This document shows positions 3,269-19,830 of a DNA stretch of 20,505 bases, one piece after another. Within the stretch, counting starts at the first letter, position 1; every line of letters begins with the position of its first letter. Under the pieces are notes generated by a model. The model saw only the letters and a program-made list of their open reading frames with translations. It was not told where the DNA came from and ran no database searches. The DNA is from a virus. The position numbers were made by a program, and so were the translations under genes. The stretch lies in IMG/VR virus record IMGVR_UViG_3300033571_022208, positions 1-20,505 of that record; one strand, given 5' to 3'.

Positions 3269-3550
3269 TTATTCTTCAACGAGTGACGGCATCAGATCTC
3301 GGGCCGACGGGGCTAGTCGGGCGGGCATCGCGAGTCGCTCAAGCGAGCGAAGCGCATGGAAATAGCCTTCGCGCCGAGCGTTCTGCATGGCGTTCCATTC
3401 CATAAAATTCAATCCAGGAGGAGTGGGCATCTCAAGCGGCTCGCCCAATTCCTTGAGGACGTCGATAGCCCGTTGAACGTGCGGTTCTTGTAAAGTCTGC
3501 GCCAGCGCAGGGCGGAACAGATCGTTTTTGCGGTATTCTTCGGCAGTCAT
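3269..3550 (-). CDS. Hypothetical phage protein (93 aa)
   Basis: The ATG at 3550 overlaps the endolysin stop as ATGA, so I take this start rather than the longer open frame reaching 3664, which would lie within the endolysin gene. The product begins MTAEEYRKNDLFRPALAQT, has a Pro-rich turn (MPTPPGLNFMEW) and a helical stretch rich in Arg and Leu, and ends in EE. It has no signal, membrane segment or known catalytic motif. It ends five bases before the ATG of the scaffold-like gene, so the two are probably translated together. It may be a small head-assembly or virion protein, but I do not recognise a family. Confidence 0.75.
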   Translation of the reverse strand: MTAEEYRKNDLFRPALAQTLQEPHVQRAIDVLKELGEPLEMPTPPGLNFMEWNAMQNARREGYFHALRSLERLAMPARLAPSARDLMPSLVEE

Positions 3551-4128
3551 TGAGTGGCTTGAAAGTGCATGGCATCCCGGGACCAGAACGCTCCGGCGGA
3601 AAGCCAACCCTCGCGGGCAAAGATTTCCATTACGTCGAAAGGCATCCGCGACTTGGTCGGCCAATGCGTAAGGTTTCCGTTCCGATTGGCATCGAGGTCT
3701 ACAGCAGCGGCACGGGCATGAAGGCTCGGCAAGCTGCCGCCGCGCATCGAGCGGTTAGCGAAAGCTCCGAAAAATCGATTTACTCCCGCTTCCGTCCGGG
3801 CTTCGTCGGTCTTGTAGCGCTCCCCTAGAGCCTTGAGGATTCGCTCAAAGCTCGGCGCGAGCTTTTCGTGAACGGCAATCGTCTTCACAGTCGAGGGGCC
3901 GTTGTACAAAAACATCTTGTACGGCACCGGAACCGGCTCCAGCGGAACGTGTCCGGGACGCCCGTAAAAGTTGGTCAGCGCCGCTTGCGTAGTCTTAGGC
4001 CAAGGCTTTGACGCCGGCATCAGCCCGCGAAGATGTCGCTGGGCGGCTGCGACGGACTGGGGTCCCCAAAAGCCGTCAGGCTCAGTCCCGACGGTTTCCT
4101 GGATAATCTTGATCTGCGTTTGGTTCAC
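3547..4128 (-). CDS. Endolysin: PG-binding domain plus M15 (VanY-like) peptidase (193 aa)
   Basis: The N-terminus (residues about 5-36, with DGFWGPQSVAAAQRHL) matches the compact PG_binding_1 fold that anchors lysins to peptidoglycan. The C-terminal half has the zinc-peptidase layout of the M15 family: SLHARAAAVDLD supplies His137 and Asp144, and the DAMHF segment near the end supplies His188, with Asp185 where Glu is more usual. M15 lysins cleave peptide bonds in peptidoglycan stem or cross-bridge peptides. No signal peptide is visible, so release should depend on a holin, and small membrane-protein genes lie directly upstream. The start is a GTG overlapping the upstream lipoprotein stop as GTGA. 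The C-terminus is coupled by ATGA to the next gene. I am confident of the class, but not of the exact bond cut. Confidence 0.88.
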   Translation of the reverse strand: MNQTQIKIIQETVGTEPDGFWGPQSVAAAQRHLRGLMPASKPWPKTTQAALTNFYGRPGHVPLEPVPVPYKMFLYNGPSTVKTIAVHEKLAPSFERILKALGERYKTDEARTEAGVNRFFGAFANRSMRGGSLPSLHARAAAVDLDANRNGNLTHWPTKSRMPFDVMEIFAREGWLSAGAFWSRDAMHFQATQ

Positions 4129-4465: not shown

Positions 4466-4708
4466 TTACCTATTCATCAGGTGTCGGAAGCTGTCAAATA
4501 CCCAAGCGGACATTGCCGCTATGGCGGCGGCGACGCCGTAAATGGAGGACTTTGCCGTCTCTAGGTGCTTCAACCTTTCGTCGTGCTTATCGAAGACTTT
4601 GCCGAACCTCTCTTGGTTGTCCAAAATGAGGTCCACCTTAGTCTCCAGCCGCACAAGCCGCTGAGCGTCCAAGAAGTGGTCTGATTCTTTGCCGGCCATT
4701 TCATTCAT
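4466..4708 (-). CDS. XhlA-like / holin-associated membrane protein (80 aa)
   Basis: The first two thirds are a charged amphipathic helix (RLVRLETKVDLILDNQERF and on), consistent with a coiled coil. Residues about 54-72 (SIYGVAAAIAAMSAWVF) form one C-terminal transmembrane segment, followed by a short basic tail. This order matches the haemolysin XhlA-type family often found with phage holins and lysins. The gene is the first of the lysis cassette, 27 bases after the LRR protein gene and 21 bases before the one-span candidate holin. The alternative ATG at 4699 would shorten it by three residues; neither start has a clear Shine-Dalgarno sequence. An inner-membrane spanin with reversed topology is a less likely reading. 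Confidence 0.75.
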   Translation of the reverse strand: MNEMAGKESDHFLDAQRLVRLETKVDLILDNQERFGKVFDKHDERLKHLETAKSSIYGVAAAIAAMSAWVFDSFRHLMNR

Positions 4709-4735: not shown

Positions 4736-7700
4736 CTAGACGAATGTCGGGTCGATGACTTGCCAGCCACGGCTGATTGCTTGCGTTTTACTGCTGTTGT
4801 ACGTCGTGGTGTCTCCGGCGGTCGCGATAGTGCCGCTGAAATCCACAACATTGGAGTCTCCGGGTAGGCTCGAGGGGAAAGACCAAGTGCCCAACGTCCT
4901 CAGAATTCCAGCCAGAACCGTGACGCTGACGGCGCCCACGCTCTTTACCTGTACCCCGCTTCGACAAACAACTCCGACAGGAAACTGCGTCGCGAAGAAA
5001 TCATAAAACACGCTGCTACCGAGAGAAGCTACATTTTCGACCGTAATCTCCTCCATCACAGAAACTCCAGAGCTATCTTTCCGTATCGGAGCTATAGCCA
5101 GCGTCAAAGCGCCGGCATTGCGTACCCGCAACGATGACATGTGTCCGCTGTAGCCGCGCCACGAGCCGTCAGAAAATGGCACCGCGTTAAAGAGTGTTCC
5201 GGTCACCGCGCTGTTGGACGAGAACTTCGAGAGTAATGGCGCCCCTCTAAAATCTGCCGTAGTTAGAAGGGGGCAGTTGTCCAAATAGACCTCACTCAAA
5301 TGCGTCCACTGGTCACCCTCGTAGATAGCCATCTGCCCGCCGGTCAGCCCGTCTCCAGCAAATGGCTGTCCATTTATAGAGAGTACATTGCCGTCAAAAG
5401 TAAGCGGGGCGTCCCCGCCAGTCGGCTGCCATTTAGTGATGTCCGACACCCGATCAATGATCGACCATGAAGAAGATGCCGACAAGGAAGTATCTCGTAC
5501 TGCTTTATGAATGAGATACGGTCGGCCGTTTACTGGAAACCGGCCCCCAGCGACGGGCCCCCCGAAAAACGTTAAATTCCGAAATACCACCACCGAGTTT
5601 TGCTTCAAACCGGACGTCAAATTAGCTTGTGTAAACTGATCAATATTAATGGCTTGAAAACCAACACCTCCTTTCTGTACCTCGATCCATTGATTACTTG
5701 TTATGAATGAGCGTGCAACGGCGGCAGAAGTAACCGATTGCAACGCCGCATTGTCGCGTAAATCTAACAGCCGAATCGACCGGCGCCCAGCGGTTGGAAA
5801 ACTCGCTAACTGCGTGTTTCTTGCATACAATTTCTGAACTCCGGTGATGTGCCGAAATGCCATCGGCACGTTGGGGCCGTACGCATTATAAAACTGCCAC
5901 CACTCACCGGTAATAGGGTCGCCGTCAGTATCAGCTTCCGGGTCGTAGTCATAGGTGCGGTTTCCGATGTACGTTTTAATTGTGTTTGCGGGGAGCACAA
6001 GCGACGTCAGCGGATTATCCGACACGTCAAGCTCTAGCAAAGGCGCGCCATACTGCACGTCGATTGTCTGTAAGTTGTTTCCGGATAAATCCAGTCTGAA
6101 CAGCCGGTAGCCAGTAAATTGATCCGCCGGTAGAGGCAGCACAAAGGCCGGACCCAAATTATTGTCCGCGAGTTTAAGTATCTCAGTTTTACTTTCAATG
6201 CCGGTGCCTCCCAAATCAAAGGAGGTCAATAAGTTATTGCTTACATCGATTTCCCTAGGACGATAGCCGCCGAACACCCCTCCAGGAAACGCCAAAGACG
6301 TAAGTCCTTGGGTAGCGGAATCAGGGTATTGATTTGAAAGATTGAGTACGTCGCTCGGAAATAAGTGAGTGAACGTGGCAGTGTTTATTTTATTGTTTGC
6401 GGCTTTGTACGACTCTGCTACCCCATAATTACTGAAGGTCGCTGTGGTTAGCTGATTAAACGAAAGGTCTACGCGTCGCAGATATCTCGTGGTCGGCGGT
6501 ATCGAGCCAAATGTCGTCCCATACAGACTAGGTCGCCGTTGGGATATCATCGACAAGTCGATGCCGCATCTATCTACCTTAAAGGTCGCGTCCGTCAGGA
6601 AGTTTGATTGAACGTCTAGGTCTATAAGATCCGCGCAATCCTCAATATTAAGATACGTTAGCCGATTAAACGATAAGTCTAATATGTAAATTGGGGTGTT
6701 CGGCGCTGAAAACTCGCTTAAGCCTAAATTGCTCAGCATTAAATGGCGTTTGACTTCGGTCACCATCCCGACGCGCGCGAGCAAAGGATTGTTCGGGGTG
6801 TTCCGGTAAAGCCAGCGCTCAGTTACGGGTCGCCCAAAAAAGTCGGTTCGAAGCTCTGACGCCAGCGCAGGGACGCCTACGGGATCATTGTTTTCGGCCA
6901 ACGCAATCTCGAGATATTGCCTAGTACCAACATAATACGTCCCCTCGACGCCAGCCAGAGTAAACTTCATTCCGATAACTGGATCATCCGGCGGCGGCCA
7001 CGTGTTTGGCATTCGCGTAAAATCAATGACTGTCGGCCTTACAGTCAAATATTGTCGGGTAGTACCCCAGTTCTGCGAAATATTTACTGTGTACGTGCCG
7101 TTGCCGCCCGTGCCGGTTCCTAGCGCGGTGATACGGGTGTCTTTCACTAGCTTGTTACCATAGTAAGTCCCTACAGGTAGCTCCACCCCGTCTGTTATGT
7201 TCATCCCGACTTGAAGAGGCACTGAGCCCGGTTCGTTTACAACATCGTCTACTGTCAGGGTTGTGCCGTTTATGTTTGCGCGAAACCGAGGAGGACGCGC
7301 AGTAACTACCGGGTTACCGAAATCGAAGTCAGGGTGCGGCAGCCAAGAGATCGGGTATTCTCCAAAGGTTCCGACTGACCTCAAAGTACAATAAGGGTAC
7401 GTGAAATTACACAGTGGATGCTGGCATCTAAGAACCGACGGCGCGCCTTCGCAGAACTCAGGCTGATTCTGCACCGCGAGTAACGCGTAAAGTGCGTCTT
7501 TTTTTGTACCCAAAACAGCTTTGAAACCTGAGTCTGCTTCCGTCCACCCTTCGACAATAGACTCGTAGATGTCGCCCGGGAAAGCATCGGTTCGTTGCGG
7601 TAGGTTAAAGTATATTCGTCTGCCCGTTGGGAAAAACACGCGGTTTGTCGCTTCATCGTACGTGTATTCCGAAAACTGTTCGTCCAACGTCGCCCCCGAC

Positions 7701-7825
7701 TGGCCGAACGCGCCTTCCCAATTTGGGATTTCTTTAATTGCGCCGAACGCAGGGTCCAAAACAAAATACGTATCGTCGCGAAAAACGCTTTGCCTTCCTT
7801 TGACGCTGCCTCGTATCGCAAACAT
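4736..7825 (-). CDS. Leucine-rich-repeat tail fibre / receptor-binding protein candidate (1029 aa)
   Basis: The ATG at 7825 overlaps the upstream stop as TAATG, so I prefer it to a GTG at 7840. Residues 1-105 are a mixed region, followed by a Cys-rich patch (four Cys within about 22 residues). Residues about 210-265 carry an ITALGTGTGGNGTYTVN segment of a kind I recall from phage tail proteins. From about 360 to 695 the sequence has repeated LRR cores: ILDLSFNRLTYL, LIDLDVQSNFLT, RRVDLSFNQLTT, EIDVSNNLLTSF, LFRLDLSGNNLQ and ELDVSDNPLTSL. The last 330 residues are beta-rich with weaker repeat traces (YLDNCPLLTTADF). LRR domains bind proteins or glycans, so a host-binding role is likely. It sits just before the lysis genes, as tail-fibre genes often do. 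No signal peptide or transmembrane segment is seen. Confidence 0.8.
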   Translation of the reverse strand: MFAIRGSVKGRQSVFRDDTYFVLDPAFGAIKEIPNWEGAFGQSGATLDEQFSEYTYDEATNRVFFPTGRRIYFNLPQRTDAFPGDIYESIVEGWTEADSGFKAVLGTKKDALYALLAVQNQPEFCEGAPSVLRCQHPLCNFTYPYCTLRSVGTFGEYPISWLPHPDFDFGNPVVTARPPRFRANINGTTLTVDDVVNEPGSVPLQVGMNITDGVELPVGTYYGNKLVKDTRITALGTGTGGNGTYTVNISQNWGTTRQYLTVRPTVIDFTRMPNTWPPPDDPVIGMKFTLAGVEGTYYVGTRQYLEIALAENNDPVGVPALASELRTDFFGRPVTERWLYRNTPNNPLLARVGMVTEVKRHLMLSNLGLSEFSAPNTPIYILDLSFNRLTYLNIEDCADLIDLDVQSNFLTDATFKVDRCGIDLSMISQRRPSLYGTTFGSIPPTTRYLRRVDLSFNQLTTATFSNYGVAESYKAANNKINTATFTHLFPSDVLNLSNQYPDSATQGLTSLAFPGGVFGGYRPREIDVSNNLLTSFDLGGTGIESKTEILKLADNNLGPAFVLPLPADQFTGYRLFRLDLSGNNLQTIDVQYGAPLLELDVSDNPLTSLVLPANTIKTYIGNRTYDYDPEADTDGDPITGEWWQFYNAYGPNVPMAFRHITGVQKLYARNTQLASFPTAGRRSIRLLDLRDNAALQSVTSAAVARSFITSNQWIEVQKGGVGFQAINIDQFTQANLTSGLKQNSVVVFRNLTFFGGPVAGGRFPVNGRPYLIHKAVRDTSLSASSSWSIIDRVSDITKWQPTGGDAPLTFDGNVLSINGQPFAGDGLTGGQMAIYEGDQWTHLSEVYLDNCPLLTTADFRGAPLLSKFSSNSAVTGTLFNAVPFSDGSWRGYSGHMSSLRVRNAGALTLAIAPIRKDSSGVSVMEEITVENVASLGSSVFYDFFATQFPVGVVCRSGVQVKSVGAVSVTVLAGILRTLGTWSFPSSLPGDSNVVDFSGTIATAGDTTTYNSSKTQAISRGWQVIDPTFV

Positions 7826-8178
7826 TACGCCGCGATCCACTCGTCGTCACCAATCTTAATCAACGCCTGCGACGCTGAATTCCGAGTGTACGTTATGACT
7901 GTCGAGCTGCCCGCTTCAAGCGCAACCTCGCCGGGATCAGGAGACAGTATCAAAATTTGAGTTCCTATCGGAAACTTTACTGAGGCGCTCGGAACATAGA
8001 CCGGCCCCCCCGCCGTAACCACTAGCCCGCCAGCATCTTCTAGTTGAAGCGTATAAGGGGCGTTACTGAATAGCCGCCTCACTCCGCACGACAACGGTGC
8101 GGCCCCTGCTTCTTGGGCCGAGGTGATGGGAAACAGCTCCCCGCTAAACGGGTTAAACTTGTACCCCGGGAGACTCAT
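7825..8178 (-). CDS. Small beta-rich virion protein (117 aa)
   Basis: The protein opens with LPGYKFNPFSGEL, a start I recall in small phage structural proteins, and then shows alternating beta-type segments: YTLQLEDAGG, VYVPSASVKFPIGTQILIL, TVITYTRN and ALIKIGDDEWIAA. The second half resembles the short beta-sandwich repeats at the ends of phage spike and fibre proteins (a strand, then FPIGTQI). It has no catalytic motif. The ATG overlaps the HNH-like gene stop as ATGA, and its stop overlaps the start of the LRR protein as TAATG. A role as adaptor or head/tail decoration for the LRR fibre is plausible from this coupling, but is inference. Confidence 0.75.
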   Translation of the reverse strand: MSLPGYKFNPFSGELFPITSAQEAGAAPLSCGVRRLFSNAPYTLQLEDAGGLVVTAGGPVYVPSASVKFPIGTQILILSPDPGEVALEAGSSTVITYTRNSASQALIKIGDDEWIAA

Positions 8179-8393
8179 TGAATGCTTCGGTTAAGCGATT
8201 TAGGGATCGCGCGCAGATTGCTACGGCGATTCGACATGCCGTTCATGTGATGAACGTCTTTGCCGTCGCCCTTACGAACGTGGCCGAGCTTCTCCATCTT
8301 ACGGCGAGCCTTGTTCCGCTGGCTGCGACGTTTGATTTGCTCCGGCTTCGCGTGGTAGTCGGCGTATTCTTTGGCGTAGTTTCGAGCGCTCAT
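8175..8393 (-). CDS. HNH-like mini-protein (72 aa)
   Basis: The N-terminal half is strongly basic and helical (KPEQIKRRSQRNKARRKMEK). The C-terminal half, GKDVHHMNGMSNRRSNLRAI followed by PKSLNRS, follows the HNH pattern: a DVHH strand, a turn, NLR, and a final NRS. The last metal-binding His of a full HNH nuclease is replaced by Asn (HNN type), which occurs in active members of the superfamily too. No Cys pairs are present. The gene starts inside the portal stop (ATGA) and ends inside the next start (ATGA). Small HNH proteins near terminase and portal genes assist packaging in some phages; whether this one cuts DNA is unknown. Confidence 0.75.
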   Translation of the reverse strand: MSARNYAKEYADYHAKPEQIKRRSQRNKARRKMEKLGHVRKGDGKDVHHMNGMSNRRSNLRAIPKSLNRSIQ

Positions 8394-10732
8394 TGAGTTT
8401 CGGTAGGCACGATTTCGGGAACCGCCATGCGGCTCGCCATTTTAACCTTGGCCGCTGTCTCGGCGTCTTTCAGCGCCATCTTCTGGGACGTTTCGGCCTG
8501 TTTCAAAGCCATGGTCGCCTGATGCCGCTCGACATCCATTTGCAACTTGGCTTGGCGTTCCATCAATTCTTGACGGGCTTTCGGCGAAAGCTGTTCGGAC
8601 TCGGCGAGCTTCTGCTCCATCGCGGCGATGCGAGCTTGCTCCGACTCGATCATTCGCTGCTGTTCGGCTTGCTGCGCCATCGCTTGCTTCTCGGCGGCGG
8701 CTTTAAGCTCGTCGGCCATGCGGTCGCGGGACGCGCCGAGCTGCTGGAGACGCTGGCGCATCATCGCGACTTGATCTTTGCGGACAAGATCGCTGCCGAG
8801 CCGCTGAACGTGCTCGGCCAGGTGCGGCAAGAACAAGTCCATCGCTTGCAGCGCGGCCATCGGGTCGGCCCCGTTGGAGATGCCCTCCTGCATTTGCTCT
8901 AGGGCCTGAAGATGTCGGCCAGCGTGAATGAAGTGGTTTTCTCCGTCGCTCACCGGCATCGGGCTGCCGCTCGACATCATGCCGTTCTCGATGACCGCAA
9001 GCTTGTCGTCCATAGGCGGACGCAAAGACGTTCCTGGAGCGGGCAAATACCGATCCACAACCTCCTGGCCGAAGCGGGCAGCGATCCTATCACGCAAGAG
9101 GTTGATCCGCCCGGCCTCGTCGAGGCTTCCGAAAATTGCCATTGTCTCCTCGATTGCGATTTGACGCATTCCGGGGGAGCCAAACCCAATCGCTCGGACA
9201 GGTTCAACGCTGCGCCAGCGGTAGATGGCTTCCTCGGGAACTCCGCGCTTGATGCAACGACGGCGGAAATCGACGGCCTCCCTGCCGCCGGGTTCGATGG
9301 CGGTGTATTTGCGACGGCTGAGTCGGCGGTAGACTTCCGTGAGCAACCGCTTCCACGGGTGGTAAAACAGATTGATCGACGCCGAGCTTAGGACCGCTTC
9401 TTGCTGAAGCTGCGCTCTAACCTCGTAGGCAGTCCGCGCTTGGCCGTCCGCGTTCATGGCGCGGGACTGATACCCGACAGTGCGGTTGGTCATGTTCTGC
9501 GTCAGGTCTTGCAGGACCGGCAGCATGTTGCGGCTGTAGTCTGGAATGGCCTTCTCTACAACTTTCAGCCCGGGAGGAAACAACGCATAAGGGCCGTAGT
9601 ACGATAGGGTAAGATCTTCGAGTGCGCGGCTGCCCTGATCTCCGGGCTGCACAATTAAAGCCGAGCTTAACAGCGCACCATCGACCATGCCGCAGCGAAG
9701 GCGGTTCAGAAGCTGGATGTGCGGGTAGATCTTAAATCCAAGCCCGCGAATGCCATGATACGTTCCGTTACCGACGCCGTACGTAAAGGTGACAAAGCAG
9801 TTAACGGGAGAAGAAAAGCGATTGGCGCGGGTAAAGAGAAACTCTTCGTCCGGCTCGTCTTCGTCAATCGAACCCACGGGGTCGCGCAAGAACATCAAAT
9901 GCGAGACTTTCCCCGAGAATTCCCGAACCCACATGTGGACTACGTCCACTTTCTTGGCGCGGCTGTTCGTATAGAGGAGGTCATTGTTCTTCAGCTCGAC
10001 CTCCAGCTTTTCCCACTCGCCGACTTCGTAGTTCGTCCGTTCGTTGCAGGCCCTTAAAAGCGCGTGCCGGACCATCTTGACGTTCCAGCCTAACGAGGCG
10101 GCAACCTTGGGGTCGCGGATGTAATGATAAAGTTGATGGGCCTGATACTCGCGCTCCACTGTCGCGCATTCGATCTCGAACTCGTTGGCCTTTGTCCCAC
10201 GGGGCATACGAAACTCGGAAAGCCCCGCCACTCTCCAACGCCAATCGACTTCGTCTTCAAAATACGTCACGCCAACCCCATGCGAAACGAACTGGTCGGC
10301 CAGCATTTGATGGGAAAATTCAAACTCCGGCCATTCTTTAAGCGTCCGGTGAAACTCTTCCGAGATGACGCGCTCCCACTCGACCCGCTGCTCGGCCGTT
10401 CCGTAATCCAAAGACACTCGGGCCAGCGAATCAACCGACGCCGTCAGATCGTAGTATCCGGCCAAGGCTTGCTCTTTGAGCGCCGCTGCCTCGCCAAAAT
10501 CCAAGTTTGTTCTCTCGCCTTGACCCATCTCCGTCAGGTCGTCCTGGTTGAATGGGGGCGAACCATTGAACATCGAGTCGATCAACGCCCGGTTCTGGGA
10601 GCTTCCGGCGTCGGAATCCTTCAAGGCCTTATAAATGGAGCGGGCTGCGTCAACAGTCGTGACGCGCATTTTCGGCGGCTTGCCTGATTCGTTCAGCCCC
10701 GCCAGTTCAAGTGGTTGCAATCCGGATTCCAT
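8390..10732 (-). CDS. Portal (head-tail connector) protein (780 aa)
   Basis: Length, position two genes after the large terminase, and composition fit the large portal proteins of podovirus-like phages. They form the dodecameric ring through which DNA is packaged. Residues 1-550 contain an N-terminal helical region, a beta/alpha body (FVSHGVGVTYFEDEVDWRWR) and a stem-like stretch (YSRNMLPVLQDLTQNMTNRT). From about 640 on, the chain is a long Gln/Glu/Ala/Met-rich helix (EKQAMAQQAEQQRMIESEQA) that should form a coiled-coil barrel, as in P22-type portals. No conserved short active-site motif exists for portals, so the call rests on context and architecture. The start has no visible Shine-Dalgarno sequence; the end overlaps the HNH-like gene by ATGA. 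Confidence 0.85.
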   Translation of the reverse strand: MESGLQPLELAGLNESGKPPKMRVTTVDAARSIYKALKDSDAGSSQNRALIDSMFNGSPPFNQDDLTEMGQGERTNLDFGEAAALKEQALAGYYDLTASVDSLARVSLDYGTAEQRVEWERVISEEFHRTLKEWPEFEFSHQMLADQFVSHGVGVTYFEDEVDWRWRVAGLSEFRMPRGTKANEFEIECATVEREYQAHQLYHYIRDPKVAASLGWNVKMVRHALLRACNERTNYEVGEWEKLEVELKNNDLLYTNSRAKKVDVVHMWVREFSGKVSHLMFLRDPVGSIDEDEPDEEFLFTRANRFSSPVNCFVTFTYGVGNGTYHGIRGLGFKIYPHIQLLNRLRCGMVDGALLSSALIVQPGDQGSRALEDLTLSYYGPYALFPPGLKVVEKAIPDYSRNMLPVLQDLTQNMTNRTVGYQSRAMNADGQARTAYEVRAQLQQEAVLSSASINLFYHPWKRLLTEVYRRLSRRKYTAIEPGGREAVDFRRRCIKRGVPEEAIYRWRSVEPVRAIGFGSPGMRQIAIEETMAIFGSLDEAGRINLLRDRIAARFGQEVVDRYLPAPGTSLRPPMDDKLAVIENGMMSSGSPMPVSDGENHFIHAGRHLQALEQMQEGISNGADPMAALQAMDLFLPHLAEHVQRLGSDLVRKDQVAMMRQRLQQLGASRDRMADELKAAAEKQAMAQQAEQQRMIESEQARIAAMEQKLAESEQLSPKARQELMERQAKLQMDVERHQATMALKQAETSQKMALKDAETAAKVKMASRMAVPEIVPTETQ

Positions 10733-13588: not shown

Positions 13589-13819
13589 TTTGTGCCAAAA
13601 TCCTTGTCACAGCCCGGCACAGGCCGATTTGATAACGGCGCAAGGCGCTGGTACTCTGAAGGTTTACGCATTTGTGCAATCAACTTCGAATCCCGTGCGC
13701 GCTGCCCCATTTTCAAATTCGTAAGTCACTCGACTTACTCTGTTAATCGGAAAGTTATGCAACATTTGTTGTGAACCTTTGTGCAAGGTTATGAATAATT
13801 TTGAACGACTTGGCACAAA
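13589..13819. repeat. Four TTTGTGC-type words, possible integrase arm sites
   Basis: TTTGTGCCAA lies at 13589-13598, TTTGTGCAA at 13671-13679 and again at 13778-13786, and TTGGCACAAA, the exact reverse complement of the first, at 13810-13819. They surround the tRNA-like segment on both sides. Repeated short arm sites flanking a core are the known layout of tyrosine-recombinase attP sites. They could equally be operator sites for a regulator of the divergent promoters. Confidence 0.4.
13685..13709 (+). other. Candidate attP core (tRNA 3'-end-like segment)
   Basis: The plus strand reads TTCGAATCCCGTGCGCGC and then TGCCCCA. TTCGAAT is the classic tRNA T-loop; the following five bases and seven bases are in the right places for the T-stem and acceptor 3' strands. 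The upstream half of the T-stem does not pair (TCAAC against CCCGT), so this is not a complete tRNA. Integrases of temperate phages commonly use the 3' half of a host tRNA as the shared core, and the integrase gene starts 128 bases away. No host sequence is available to confirm it. Confidence 0.4.
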
Positions 13820-13836
13820 CTTACGTCAAAAAACAC

Positions 13837-15093
13837 ATGACCGAATCAACCCTTATTGAGACCGAACCCGGCGTTCACGAACTCCAACTGAACGGATCGC
13901 GGGTCAAAATTCGCGAAACCAAAAACGGCAACTACAAGTTTTTCCGGCTCGACTGGAAAGTCGGTAGCCGCGCATTCCGCCGCGCCTTTTCCTCCTCCGA
14001 AAAAGCCATCGACGAGGCCGAGCGCATTGTACGGGATCTTGCCCGGGCCGAAGGGGAAAAAACAACCGTGCGTAGCGAGGATATCGTCTACTACCGCGAA
14101 TGCGCCCGAAAGCTTGGCGGCGTTCCCCTGCACGAAGCCGTCGAGTTCTACTGCAAGTTCCATCGGGTCGGGGCTCCCCGCAAAACCATCGCCGATCTCG
14201 CCCAAGAACTCGAAGTCGCCACCCGCGCCCGCGAGGCATCCCGGCGGCATCTCGAAACAATCATTCATCTCAACAAGGTATGGACAAAATGGACGGGCGC
14301 AATGACGCCCTCCGAAATTACCCCCGCGCTCATCGAGCGAAAGTTCTCCGAAAGCGACTACTCGGCCCACACGAAAAAGAATTTGCTACGGGGTTACCGG
14401 GCCCTGGAGCTGTTCGCGATCCGCCAAAAATATCTGCCGCGTGAATTCGAGAGCGTAGCCGAGCGGGTGACCATACCCAAAACGCGCAACGCCACGCCAG
14501 CCGTGTTCACTCCGGAAGATCTGATGCGGCTCTTCGTTGCCGCGCAGCCGAAACATTTGTCCTACATCGCCATGATGGCGTTTGCTGGCGCCCGCCGGGC
14601 GGAGTTCGAGCGCATGACCCGCGACCACATTTCGCTCGATGACAAAGTCGCCATCATCAATGCGGAAATTGCCAAGAAGGGTTCCCGGCGCGTTTTGGAA
14701 TTACCGGAAAACCTTTGCGAGTGGCTGCGCGTGGCCGAACTTCCCGAGAAGGGTCTCCTCACGTCACGCAAAAGCATCGAGCGGCTTTCGTCCAATAAAG
14801 CAGCGCTGAAAGAAGTGGGCCTGGACGCCTCAAAGTGGGAGCAGAACGTGCTCCGCCACTCCTTTTGCTCCTACCACTTGGCCTTACACCGCAACGCGGC
14901 CACCACTTCAGAGCAGGCCGGCAACTCACCTCAAATGCTCCGCGAGCACTACAAATCACTCGTGACCCCCGCCGCCGCCAAAGAATGGTTTGACATAACC
15001 CCCGCCAAGGTGATGCAATTCGCAACTGAGCGTCACCTTGCAGGGTTAATAAAATGGACTTGCCACAAGAAAGGAGCTGTGACAATTTCGTAA
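13837..15093 (+). CDS. int: Tyrosine integrase (418 aa)
   Basis: This site-specific recombinase should insert and excise the phage genome. Residues about 30-80 resemble an arm-binding domain, about 120-205 a core-binding SAM-like helical domain, and the rest a catalytic domain. With this start, catalytic Arg is R253 (AGARRAE), the beta-hairpin Lys is K280 or K281 (AKKGSRR), the second Arg is R340 (NVLRHSF), and the nucleophile is Tyr372 (REHYKSLV). The first His of the usual HxxR is Asn, and the usual Gly-His is Gly-Asn. The LRHSF-SYHL and SPQMLREHY phrasing recalls verrucomicrobial integrases. I chose ATG 13837; an in-frame TTG at 13801 would add 12 residues. It heads the rightward block. 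Confidence 0.93.
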   Translation: MTESTLIETEPGVHELQLNGSRVKIRETKNGNYKFFRLDWKVGSRAFRRAFSSSEKAIDEAERIVRDLARAEGEKTTVRSEDIVYYRECARKLGGVPLHEAVEFYCKFHRVGAPRKTIADLAQELEVATRAREASRRHLETIIHLNKVWTKWTGAMTPSEITPALIERKFSESDYSAHTKKNLLRGYRALELFAIRQKYLPREFESVAERVTIPKTRNATPAVFTPEDLMRLFVAAQPKHLSYIAMMAFAGARRAEFERMTRDHISLDDKVAIINAEIAKKGSRRVLELPENLCEWLRVAELPEKGLLTSRKSIERLSSNKAALKEVGLDASKWEQNVLRHSFCSYHLALHRNAATTSEQAGNSPQMLREHYKSLVTPAAAKEWFDITPAKVMQFATERHLAGLIKWTCHKKGAVTIS

Positions 15094-16741: not shown

Positions 16742-17413
16742 ATGACTCCCGAGCAAGTACGAGCCCTCTACGACCAAAGATACGCCGAAACATACGATGC
16801 GACATTCCGGGAGGGATCAACGGCGTCACCCCTGACCAAACACGAAAGATCGATCCTCAAGCTACTGCTCGACAAAGGAGGGCCGTGGCTAGACGTCGGA
16901 TGCGGCACCGGCTATTTTCTAAAGCAGTTCCCCCACATCGAGCGGACAGGGTTAGACTTGTCGCCCGCCATGTTGCGGATCGCCCAAAAAGCCAACCCTT
17001 CGGCAACGCTAGTCGGAGGGAACTTTCTGGAGCCGCACCCACAATGGAACGGAAAATTCCGGGTGGTAACATGTATGTGGTATGCCTACACCCTAGTAGA
17101 CTCCATCCGTGACGTCGAAGTCGCGATAAACAACATGGCCGACTGGACCTCTACGGACGGATTTCTGTTCGTTCCAGTTTGCGATCCACACTCTTTTGTG
17201 GGCGAGTTTCCAGACAGCCAACCGTGGTGGGACGCCAAATCGTCAGTCCGAGTAACCGGCGTCACATGGAATTTTGAACAGCCCGGCAAGAACCACGTTC
17301 ACTTAGTTAGCCCGACTACCGAGGTCATGCGGGAGATGCTCTCCAGACGTTTCCATAGTGTGACCAAGATCTCATATGAGACCGTCGCGTTTCTCGCTAA
17401 ACACAAACGATGA
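16742..17413 (+). CDS. SAM-dependent methyltransferase, class I (223 aa)
   Basis: Motif I is WLDVGCGTGYFL (Asp51 to Gly57), motif II is TGLDLSPAML (acidic Asp72, binds the SAM ribose), and motif III is VGGNFLEPH. The N-terminus YDQRYAETYD is typical of small-molecule or generic methyltransferases of the UbiE/Methyltransf_11 type. No DPPY/NPPY motif is present, so an N6-adenine DNA methylase is unlikely; no PCQ motif for C5-cytosine is seen. The substrate is unknown. The stop overlaps the helicase start as ATGA, so the two are co-translated. The start has no Shine-Dalgarno sequence. Confidence 0.85.
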   Translation: MTPEQVRALYDQRYAETYDATFREGSTASPLTKHERSILKLLLDKGGPWLDVGCGTGYFLKQFPHIERTGLDLSPAMLRIAQKANPSATLVGGNFLEPHPQWNGKFRVVTCMWYAYTLVDSIRDVEVAINNMADWTSTDGFLFVPVCDPHSFVGEFPDSQPWWDAKSSVRVTGVTWNFEQPGKNHVHLVSPTTEVMREMLSRRFHSVTKISYETVAFLAKHKR

Positions 17414-19830
17414 AGCTCTTCCCCTACCAAAAAGAAGCCGTAGAGCGGCACCTCAAGATCCTCGACTCAGTCGGCGCTTCCTTAGACGGAACCGGCTGCG
17501 GAGGCGGGAAAACTGTTATCGCCAGCGCGGTGGCGGCCAAGTATGCGTTGAAAACCTGCGTGGTCTGCCCGAAGAGCGTCATCGCCAAGTGGGAAGACAC
17601 GCTCGCGGCGTTCGGGGTCAAGCCCCTCTTTGTTCTCAACCCCGAAAAGTTGCGGAACGGGAACACCCCCTGGGTAAAAAAGATCCCGAGCGGGGGTAAA
17701 AAGACAAAGTTCGAGTGGAATATACCCGAGCGGTGTCTTTTGATTTTCGACGAGGCGCACGTCTGCGGCTCGGCGACGTCCCAGAACGGAAAACTCCTTG
17801 AGTCCGCCGCTGACCATTGCGTTCTCATGCTCTCGGCGACCGCTGCCGAGTCCCCTCTCCGCATGAAAGCCATCGGAGTCCAGCTCCGTCTCTTTACGCC
17901 CGGCTACTACTGGAAATGGGTCCGCGAACAAGGAGCGGTCGAGTCTCGATGGGGCGGACTAGAGTGGGATCCTAAGCGCGCTGAAAACAAAGAGAAAATG
18001 GAACGCCTCCATCATTCGATATACGCGAATAGAGGATACCGCGTCCCGGAGGCAGTCCTGCGCGAGCAGCTCCCAGAGCTGATGATTACCGACGAACAAC
18101 TATGGCTTTCCACAACCGACAAAAATGAAGTCAAAAAACTCTACGACGAAATGGCCGACCCCGAAGATCCAGGAGCGGTCAAAAACCTCCGGCAGCGTCA
18201 AGCCATCGAGAAAATCAAAGTCCCCTACCTCGTGGAGAGGGCGAAAGAAATCGTGGACGCCGGAGGATCAGCCGTCGTCTTCCTCAATTTCCACGAATCC
18301 ATCGACGCCGCCCGCGTCCATTTCGACCAAGGCTGCGTCATCGACGGACGCGAAAGCGCGGAACAGCGGCTCGAAACGCGCCGCCGGTTTCAAGCAAACG
18401 AACTGCGGACGATCATCGTCCAAATCGCGGCCGGTGGACAAAGCATCGATCTACACGACACAAGTGGTTCGTTCCCTCGCGTGGCTTTGCTGTGCCCCCA
18501 ATTCAGCGGAGTTGTGGAAGAGCAGGCTATTGGACGGATCGCCCGAGTGGGGGCCCGGTCGAGGGCTCTCGTTATCCGACTGTTTGCCCCCGGAAGCGTA
18601 GAAGCGGCCGCCGCCAAACTCAGCGCCGAAAAACGCGAAAACTTAGAAATTTTGAATGAGGGCAAGAAAAGTTTGAACGAATCCGCCAGTCCCGAAGTCT
18701 CTTCTTCCATGTCCGGGTTATCAACCTCACAACCTGCGGCCGATGCGCCCGAAATTCTTCCCGCTCACAGCGAGCATTCACCTTCATCCCTAAAACTCAA
18801 AGCTATATGCCCAGGATTCCGAAACGACCAAACCAGAGACAAATCAGCAGCCGACCGAGGGACCCTCGGCCACAAAGCGGTGGAGCTGGAAAACCTCGAC
18901 GTGGTCCCACCGGACGATTCACGTCTGCGCGAAGCTGCGGAAATGTGCCTGAAGTATCTCTCCCTGCTGCGGAAAAAGGTCGGCCCAAGCGCAAAGGAAA
19001 TTCGCGAAGAAAGGTACTCGATGCTGGATCAGTTTGGTCATATCGACCATCTGTTCCTGAACGGGCCGCAAGCCCACTTGATCGACTACAAGTTTGCGTT
19101 CAGCGCCTACGAAGCGGACTCACCTCAATTTTGGGCCTATTGTCTCGGCGTTTGGGATAAACATCCCGAGGTCGAGGAAATCACCGCCCACGTAGTTTTA
19201 CCATTTCAAGGGGTTATCGACGTCGAGTCTTGGTCGCGGAAGTCCGACTATGAGCGGCTCTCGGCGCAAACCGCCGCGATCATCGAATCCGCTCGCCGCG
19301 ATAACCCCGAGACTTACCAGACCGGCAGCCATTGCGCGTGGTGCGGGCAACGGGCCAAATGCCCGAAGCTCAACAACCTCGCGCTGGCCGTTGCCGCCCA
19401 ATACCAACCCGAAGCGCTGGAACTTCCGGCCAAGTTCGACCCCGCACTGATCGACGATCCCGAGGTCATTGCCGTCGCCAAAAAACTCGGCCCGATCTTG
19501 AAGGCGTGGGCCGAGAAAGTCGATCAACGTGCGCTCGAAATGCGCTTGGTCGAGGGCATCGAGATTCCCGGCTTCGAGTTGGCCGAGCGGTCGGCTCCTT
19601 TCAAAATCACGGACGCGCAGGCCGCATGGGAAGTGGTCAAAGATCACATGACGCCCGAAGCCTTCGCTGGGTGCGCGGAAGTAAAAATCGGAGCGCTGGA
19701 GAAGGCGTTCGTCCGCACCGCCAAGCGCGGCACCATCAAATCCGCCAAGGAGACTTTGCGCTGCGCCCTTCTGGACGCCAACGCAGCTCAGTCCGAAGGC
19801 ACCAGCCAATACCTGAGGAAGAGCAAATGA
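17410..19830 (+). CDS. SF2 helicase fused to Cas4/DUF2800-like Fe-S nuclease (806 aa)
   Basis: Residues 1-400 are a SNF2/DEAD-type helicase: Q-like LFPYQKEAV, Walker A GTGCGGGKT (27-35), DEAH at 114-117, SAT at 142-144, QIAAGGQSIDL near 338-347, and arginine motif QAIGRIARVG (372-381). A Ser/Pro/Ala-rich linker covers about 415-460. Residues 461-655 are a PD-(D/E)XK nuclease of the Cas4/AddB/DUF2800 type: Cys467, His488 (RGTLGHKAVE), Asp546 (GHIDHLF), Asp559-x-Lys561 (LIDYK), Gln573, and Cys642, Cys645, Cys651. One Cys before and three after the nuclease core is the known 4Fe-4S clamp arrangement. The tail (660-806) is helical. It probably unwinds and resects DNA for replication or recombination. 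The fusion is unusual. Confidence 0.88.
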   Translation: MKLFPYQKEAVERHLKILDSVGASLDGTGCGGGKTVIASAVAAKYALKTCVVCPKSVIAKWEDTLAAFGVKPLFVLNPEKLRNGNTPWVKKIPSGGKKTKFEWNIPERCLLIFDEAHVCGSATSQNGKLLESAADHCVLMLSATAAESPLRMKAIGVQLRLFTPGYYWKWVREQGAVESRWGGLEWDPKRAENKEKMERLHHSIYANRGYRVPEAVLREQLPELMITDEQLWLSTTDKNEVKKLYDEMADPEDPGAVKNLRQRQAIEKIKVPYLVERAKEIVDAGGSAVVFLNFHESIDAARVHFDQGCVIDGRESAEQRLETRRRFQANELRTIIVQIAAGGQSIDLHDTSGSFPRVALLCPQFSGVVEEQAIGRIARVGARSRALVIRLFAPGSVEAAAAKLSAEKRENLEILNEGKKSLNESASPEVSSSMSGLSTSQPAADAPEILPAHSEHSPSSLKLKAICPGFRNDQTRDKSAADRGTLGHKAVELENLDVVPPDDSRLREAAEMCLKYLSLLRKKVGPSAKEIREERYSMLDQFGHIDHLFLNGPQAHLIDYKFAFSAYEADSPQFWAYCLGVWDKHPEVEEITAHVVLPFQGVIDVESWSRKSDYERLSAQTAAIIESARRDNPETYQTGSHCAWCGQRAKCPKLNNLALAVAAQYQPEALELPAKFDPALIDDPEVIAVAKKLGPILKAWAEKVDQRALEMRLVEGIEIPGFELAERSAPFKITDAQAAWEVVKDHMTPEAFAGCAEVKIGALEKAFVRTAKRGTIKSAKETLRCALLDANAAQSEGTSQYLRKSK

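Follow-up and report, generated by a model that had tools for sequence, protein, structure and literature searches.

A candidate leucine-rich-repeat fibre gene in an exchanged two-gene cassette of uncultivated phages

Introduction

The known receptor-binding domains of phages are mostly beta-helices, lectin-like or Ig-like folds. In the immunity of animals and plants, as in bacterial adhesins, recognition relies mainly on the leucine-rich repeat (LRR) as a scaffold. Phage genomes with LRRs have been described before. A BspA-type LRR open reading frame is present in the Vibrio phage pir03 (PMC7765460) and an LRR was found on an archaeal mobile element (PMC8813620); the mention of LRR in PMC11476376 is incidental. 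The LRR proteins met among isolate phages were internalin-like, wall-binding or without an assigned role.

In our study, a 1029-residue LRR protein was found in the window, the whole stretch of DNA analysed, which covers 20.5 kb out of a phage genome of ~72 kb. Like internalin J, SHOC2, YopM and the Toll-like ectodomains, the protein contained the LRR motif and a predicted solenoid fold. It differed from these LRR proteins in that no signal peptide or sorting motif was seen, in its phage structural context, in its insertion-interrupted repeats and in the absence of close homology. PHROG 21719 (function unknown) was matched over part of the repeats by six of the six LRR proteins (best 9e-12), but the match was partial and confined to the LRR region, and no fibre role is annotated. 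The C. difficile phages phiCDKH02 and CD2301 also encode an LRR protein beside the lysis genes, whereas theirs lie after the endolysin, contain annotated wall-binding repeats, are likely lysogen genes and are found outside the fibre slot. The fibre-like proteins with an FNPFTGxLD N-terminus in related uncultivated phages (L010, L018, L020 and L026) share the slot after the portal and HNH genes, the N-terminal motif and the high variability, and some of them carry a module (residues 181-257) of the window protein. In these proteins the motif and the fibre body form one chain and no LRR was seen, whereas here the motif is on a separate 117-residue protein and the body is an LRR.

Neither the isolate phages, searched with one synthetic LRR probe, nor the open-licence papers searched, preprints apart, yielded an LRR protein in a fibre slot. 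The view of an earlier note on this DNA that LRRs are rare in tail proteins agrees with this, as no LRR protein in a tail-fibre context was found among the isolate phages. No homologue of the window protein was detected by tblastn among 50,697 isolate phage records, and two other alleles (L007 and L015) gave matches only at E values of at least 0.3.

Results

The LRR gene was found in the following neighbourhood:

4736..7825, (-) strand: LRR fibre candidate, 1029 residues from the ATG at 7825; the frame is open to 7840
7825..8178, (-) strand: 117-residue partner, proposed anchor, with an FNPFSGEL motif and a beta-rich domain resembling minor tail proteins
8390..10732, (-) strand: putative portal-type protein, a conserved neighbour and the query used to find relatives
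3547..4128, (-) strand: endolysin (Peptidase_M15; PHROG 17001, E 2e-25), a conserved neighbour

The open frame (4736-7840, (-) strand) contained 1034 codons counted from the GTG. The ATG at 7825, which the earlier note had used, is the likelier start than the GTG at 7840, because M[FL][AS]IRG begins all relatives there and because the sequence TAATG joins the stop of the upstream 117-residue gene to the start of the LRR gene with a one-base overlap. The residue numbers of the LRR protein are counted from the GTG at 7840. Going upstream, the LRR gene was preceded in order by the 117-residue gene, a small HNH gene, the 780-residue portal-type protein, a phosphoesterase-like protein (named by inspection) and a terminase (PHROG 2, 5e-20). 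Downstream were an 80-residue possible holin (4466-4708, weak match, E 0.015), the M15-type endolysin, a scaffold-like protein (PHROG 4708, weak match, 1.5e-4) and a collagen-like fibre. The LRR gene was described before as placed ahead of the lysis genes, and it indeed lies between the portal and lysis genes.

The contig IMGVR_UViG_3300032295_003128 contains the window at 99.98% identity, and 3300042557_001775 and 3300032267_001204 are close relatives. Further on, the larger contig contained a probable capsid protein (L107:12-1316, assigned from its position), fibre-like proteins and one giant frame. The layout appears to be that of a T7-like podovirus. A T7-like gene order usually places fibres elsewhere, which counts against reading the LRR gene as a fibre.

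The small HNH-type gene (8175-8393, (-) strand), between the portal and the fibre slot, was present in nearly all relatives at 45-100% identity; its motif DVHHMNG..NRRSNLRAI was read from the sequence, and the gene may aid recombination or packaging.

The LRR protein was divided into the following parts:

7586..7825, (-) strand: conserved N-terminal domain, residues 6 to ~85, M[FL][AS]IRG ... FPTGxxI (six-member alignment)
7070..7300, (-) strand: fibre-type module, residues 181-257 (PHROG 38233 tail fiber protein, 2.7e-8)
5711..6745, (-) strand: first LRR block, residues 366 to ~710 (motif count, Pfam, profile and model)
4961..5305, (-) strand: predicted second, degenerate LRR-like block, residues ~846-960 (model beta strands, moderate to low confidence)
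4736..4960, (-) strand: conserved C-terminal cap ending ...QAISRGWQVIDPTFV (six-member alignment)

The motif [LIVF]xx[LIV]x[LIVF]xx[NC]x[LIF] was present seven times in the protein; 2000 shuffles gave 0.19 on average and never more than 3. The window protein matched the Pfam families LRR_4 (9e-6) and LRR_8 (6e-5), both just short of the curated cut-offs; LRR_4 was found in six of the six family members (best 1.4e-7). Against solved structures, the family profile matched internalin J (5.8e-8) and SHOC2 (1e-6). The shuffles, LRR_4 and the profile matches bear out the original description of an LRR-repeat protein.

The full-length AlphaFold model had a pLDDT of 47, and its N-terminal 365 residues were without usable structure. 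As this was too poor for use, a separate model was made of residues 361-1034. The new model had a mean pLDDT of 59.6; values were mostly ~75-93 in 361-622, lower in loops, and the segments 623-663 and 707-842 were modelled with little confidence. Its strand pairs repeated every ~20-21 residues, and a solenoid, expected at residues 360-695, was seen at ~361-622. In a PDB fold search with this model, nearly all of the 50 matches listed were LRR proteins; the best match had an E value of at least 1.6e-3 and none reached 0.001, because of the low-confidence insertions. The LRR fold therefore rests mainly on the sequence and the regular strands. By its tandem 20-29 residue LxxLxLxxNxL repeats and its predicted beta-solenoid, the protein is a member of the LRR superfamily.

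In the model, the repeats probably extend as far as the C-terminus, with an insertion at ~711-845 among them, and after the strands at ~846-960 the conserved cap ends with QAISRGWQV. The LRR is longer and more interrupted than first described: the span of 360-695 roughly fits the first block, but further LRR-like repeats begin at ~846 and reach almost to the C-terminus. Of the tail-like domains once proposed at both ends, the fibre-type module at 181-257 was found on the N-terminal side, whereas the C-terminus resembles an LRR end cap. The module showed 47% identity to fibre-slot proteins of two relatives (L026 and L018). No match to it was found in isolate phages by tblastn, and the PHROG 38233 match covers this one 77-residue module.

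An LRR protein of a phage that encodes an integrase could also be a product of lysogenic conversion, placed on or secreted from the host surface for adhesion or superinfection exclusion and not part of the virion, and the C. difficile phages, where an LRR protein with cell-wall-binding repeats adjoins the endolysin gene, offer a precedent. By inspection, however, no signal-peptide-like hydrophobic N-terminus, sorting motif or wall-binding repeat was found in the sequence, so that the signal peptide and cell-wall sorting signal of an internalin-type protein are both missing. The protein has a fibre-type module, and its gene overlaps the 117-residue gene in a late operon between portal and lysis genes, in the fibre slot of relatives. 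We consider a lysogen surface protein quite unlikely and rank it below a virion fibre.

Relatives were gathered by scanning viral contigs with the portal, which gave 66 loci. LRR proteins were found as four distinct alleles in seven contigs, grouped as the window clade with L008; L007 with L065; L006; and L015, L016 and L023. Searches of viral sequences with other queries gave no contigs beyond the same seven. A single origin of the LRR in the portal tree is possible (66% of bootstrap trees). Fibre-like proteins with xxFNPFTGxLD N-termini filled the corresponding slot, flanked by the HNH gene and the lysis genes, in ~19 further close relatives; one of these proteins (L020) gave a PHROG tail-fiber match. 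The N-terminus of the 117-residue partner was KFNPFSGELFP, and it resembled annotated minor tail proteins weakly (35-40% identity, best E 1e-3). Among the relatives found with the portal, its gene was seen solely alongside LRR genes. As the partner starts with the motif of the slot fibres and occurs only with LRR genes, the sequences suggest a split here of what is a single chain, anchor plus fibre body, in relatives. The LRR gene has the position of a tail fibre, in the structural block and in a slot of fibre-like genes.

The top fold matches included giant-virus LRR proteins and bacterial effectors, which could be taken to mean that the protein is an effector that enters the host cell by ejection or is produced there and binds a host protein through its LRRs, but these matches reflect the fold only. 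The tail-protein-like partner, the fibre module at 181-257 and the ordinary fibres in its place in relatives make an effector very improbable.

The LRR proteins were only ~24-34% identical between phages with ~99% identical portals. In blastn, the window and L007 were 91% identical from 15233 to 8099 and 94% identical from 4780 to 1654, and no similarity was detected between 8099 and 4780. The cassette is as follows:

4781..8098, (-) strand: exchanged cassette, without blastn similarity to L007 and L065, with flanks 91-94% identical

The left edge was ~27 codons into the 117-residue gene, directly after the shared motif of the anchor; the right edge fell within the final ~15 codons of the LRR gene. 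The left edge (8098) was repeated in L065 and L006, the latter supporting that edge only, and the right edge in L080, the far part of the L065 contig. Since the DNA homology stops in the 117-residue gene and resumes at the end of the LRR gene, the pair appears to be exchanged as a cassette. The phages are nearly identical elsewhere, and the difference here is a replacement of the cassette or else a very strong diversification of this one region.

Proteins encoded inside the cassette edges shared ~24-34% identity, and those of the window and L007 were ~29% identical. Between these two distant alleles, 56% of the LRR scaffold positions and 27% of the exposed positions of the strands were identical, a pattern expected when the fold is retained and its surface changes. 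Among the alleles, the first LRR block was one of the best-shared parts, and the N-terminal spacer varied most in length. The earlier note had expected the LRR to vary between constant flanks. The strong divergence beside near-identical neighbour genes was found, but within the protein there are no such flanks, as the whole protein and most of its partner are replaced.

The closeness of the LRR gene to the portal gene would suit a fibre or decoration protein of the head or neck with non-specific binding to surfaces such as polysaccharide or mucus, with the collagen-like and other fibre genes elsewhere as the true receptor binders. The cassette exchange and the clustered replacements described below exceed what would be expected of a non-specific adhesin, and we regard such a role as unlikely.

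At least one other variable fibre candidate, the collagen-like one at 153-1724, could be the real binder, which also stands against the LRR gene as receptor binder. This collagen-like gene ((-) strand) differed sharply in sequence among the window, L008 and L007, with neighbours more than 93% identical. L008 has kept the LRR gene (96%) and has a different collagen-like gene; the two fibre loci therefore vary independently.

The window and L008 LRR alleles differed at 37 residues (96% identity); variability between closely related phages, a character of tail fibres, was thus found. The dN/dS ratio of this pair was 0.35 in the LRR gene, against 0.00-0.24 in six neighbours (portal 0.01, terminase 0.03, endolysin 0.07). 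Within the LRR gene, it was 0.25 in 365-625 and 0.88 in 625-840. The replacements were clustered as follows:

5387..5980, (-) strand: replacement cluster, residues 621-818, which includes part of the insertion at ~711-845 (window/L008 comparison)

Of the 37 replacements, 21 were inside 200 codons (scan P 5e-5), whereas the synonymous changes showed no clustering (scan P 0.44). A Fisher comparison of replacements with synonymous changes gave 0.002; its interval was picked with the data already in view. The selection signal comes from this one pair among the four distinct alleles. As the segment 621-818 is outside the regular LRR core, its loops and insertion are the best candidates for current fine-tuning. 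The variable surface that had been predicted for the LRR itself was not what the close alleles showed, as their replacements lie beside the LRR core.

A tyrosine integrase (13801-15093, (+) strand), divergent from the terminase, was conserved across the phage group. In 84,980 genomes, a prophage search with the portal profile returned nothing and no close prophage was found, and the integrase profile gave 18 loci, nearly all in Verrucomicrobiota or near relatives and neighbouring phyla. A distant portal relative was found in one genome, whose class is shared with one integrase-match genome. The integrase relatives and the distant portal relative are moderate evidence that the host is probably a member of the Verrucomicrobiota.

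Nothing was found in favour of the proposed acquisition from a surface LRR protein of bacteria. A search of 289 Verrucomicrobiota genomes with the LRR profile gave five weak, generic LRR matches; the two whose surroundings were examined (L134 and L135) were among ordinary chromosomal-looking genes.

Discussion

The gene pair at 8178-4736 is probably an exchangeable virion fibre for host recognition. The 117-residue protein would be its particle-bound base, attached through the FNPFSGEL N-terminus, and would carry the LRR protein non-covalently, docked by its N-terminal domain (M[FL][AS]IRG...FPTG). The LRR solenoid and inserted loops would then contact a receptor on the surface of the host, probably of the Verrucomicrobiota. 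Homologous recombination in the conserved ends may swap the whole cassette and so change host specificity, and replacements in the insertion-rich segment 621-818 may fine-tune it.

More tentatively, and with somewhat less than even confidence, these phages may form a lineage with LRR solenoids as a variable host-recognition scaffold, exchanged as two-gene anchor-plus-LRR cassettes through short conserved ends and diversified in inserted loops. If so, this would be the phage counterpart of the recognition role of LRRs in lamprey VLRs and Toll-like receptors. The known set of receptor-binding scaffolds would gain a member with an LRR fibre that is swapped among near-identical phages. The same phage with a different LRR would be a clean natural experiment on the choice of bacterial receptors by LRR surfaces, in a host phylum that has been little studied.

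Three further observations were made on these genomes. The portal match regions of five relatives (L011, L024, L026, L028 and L029) included an in-frame stop in translation, where the gene possibly ends or changes frame inside the aligned stretch. An 806-residue protein of the window (17410-19830, (+) strand) contained a ResIII/Helicase_C helicase joined to a DUF2800 region. In the 72 kb relative, L106:3-7373 (-) and L105:16073-19999 (-) are the two pieces in which a single giant frame of ~3,770 codons was read; it probably encodes a giant internal virion protein.
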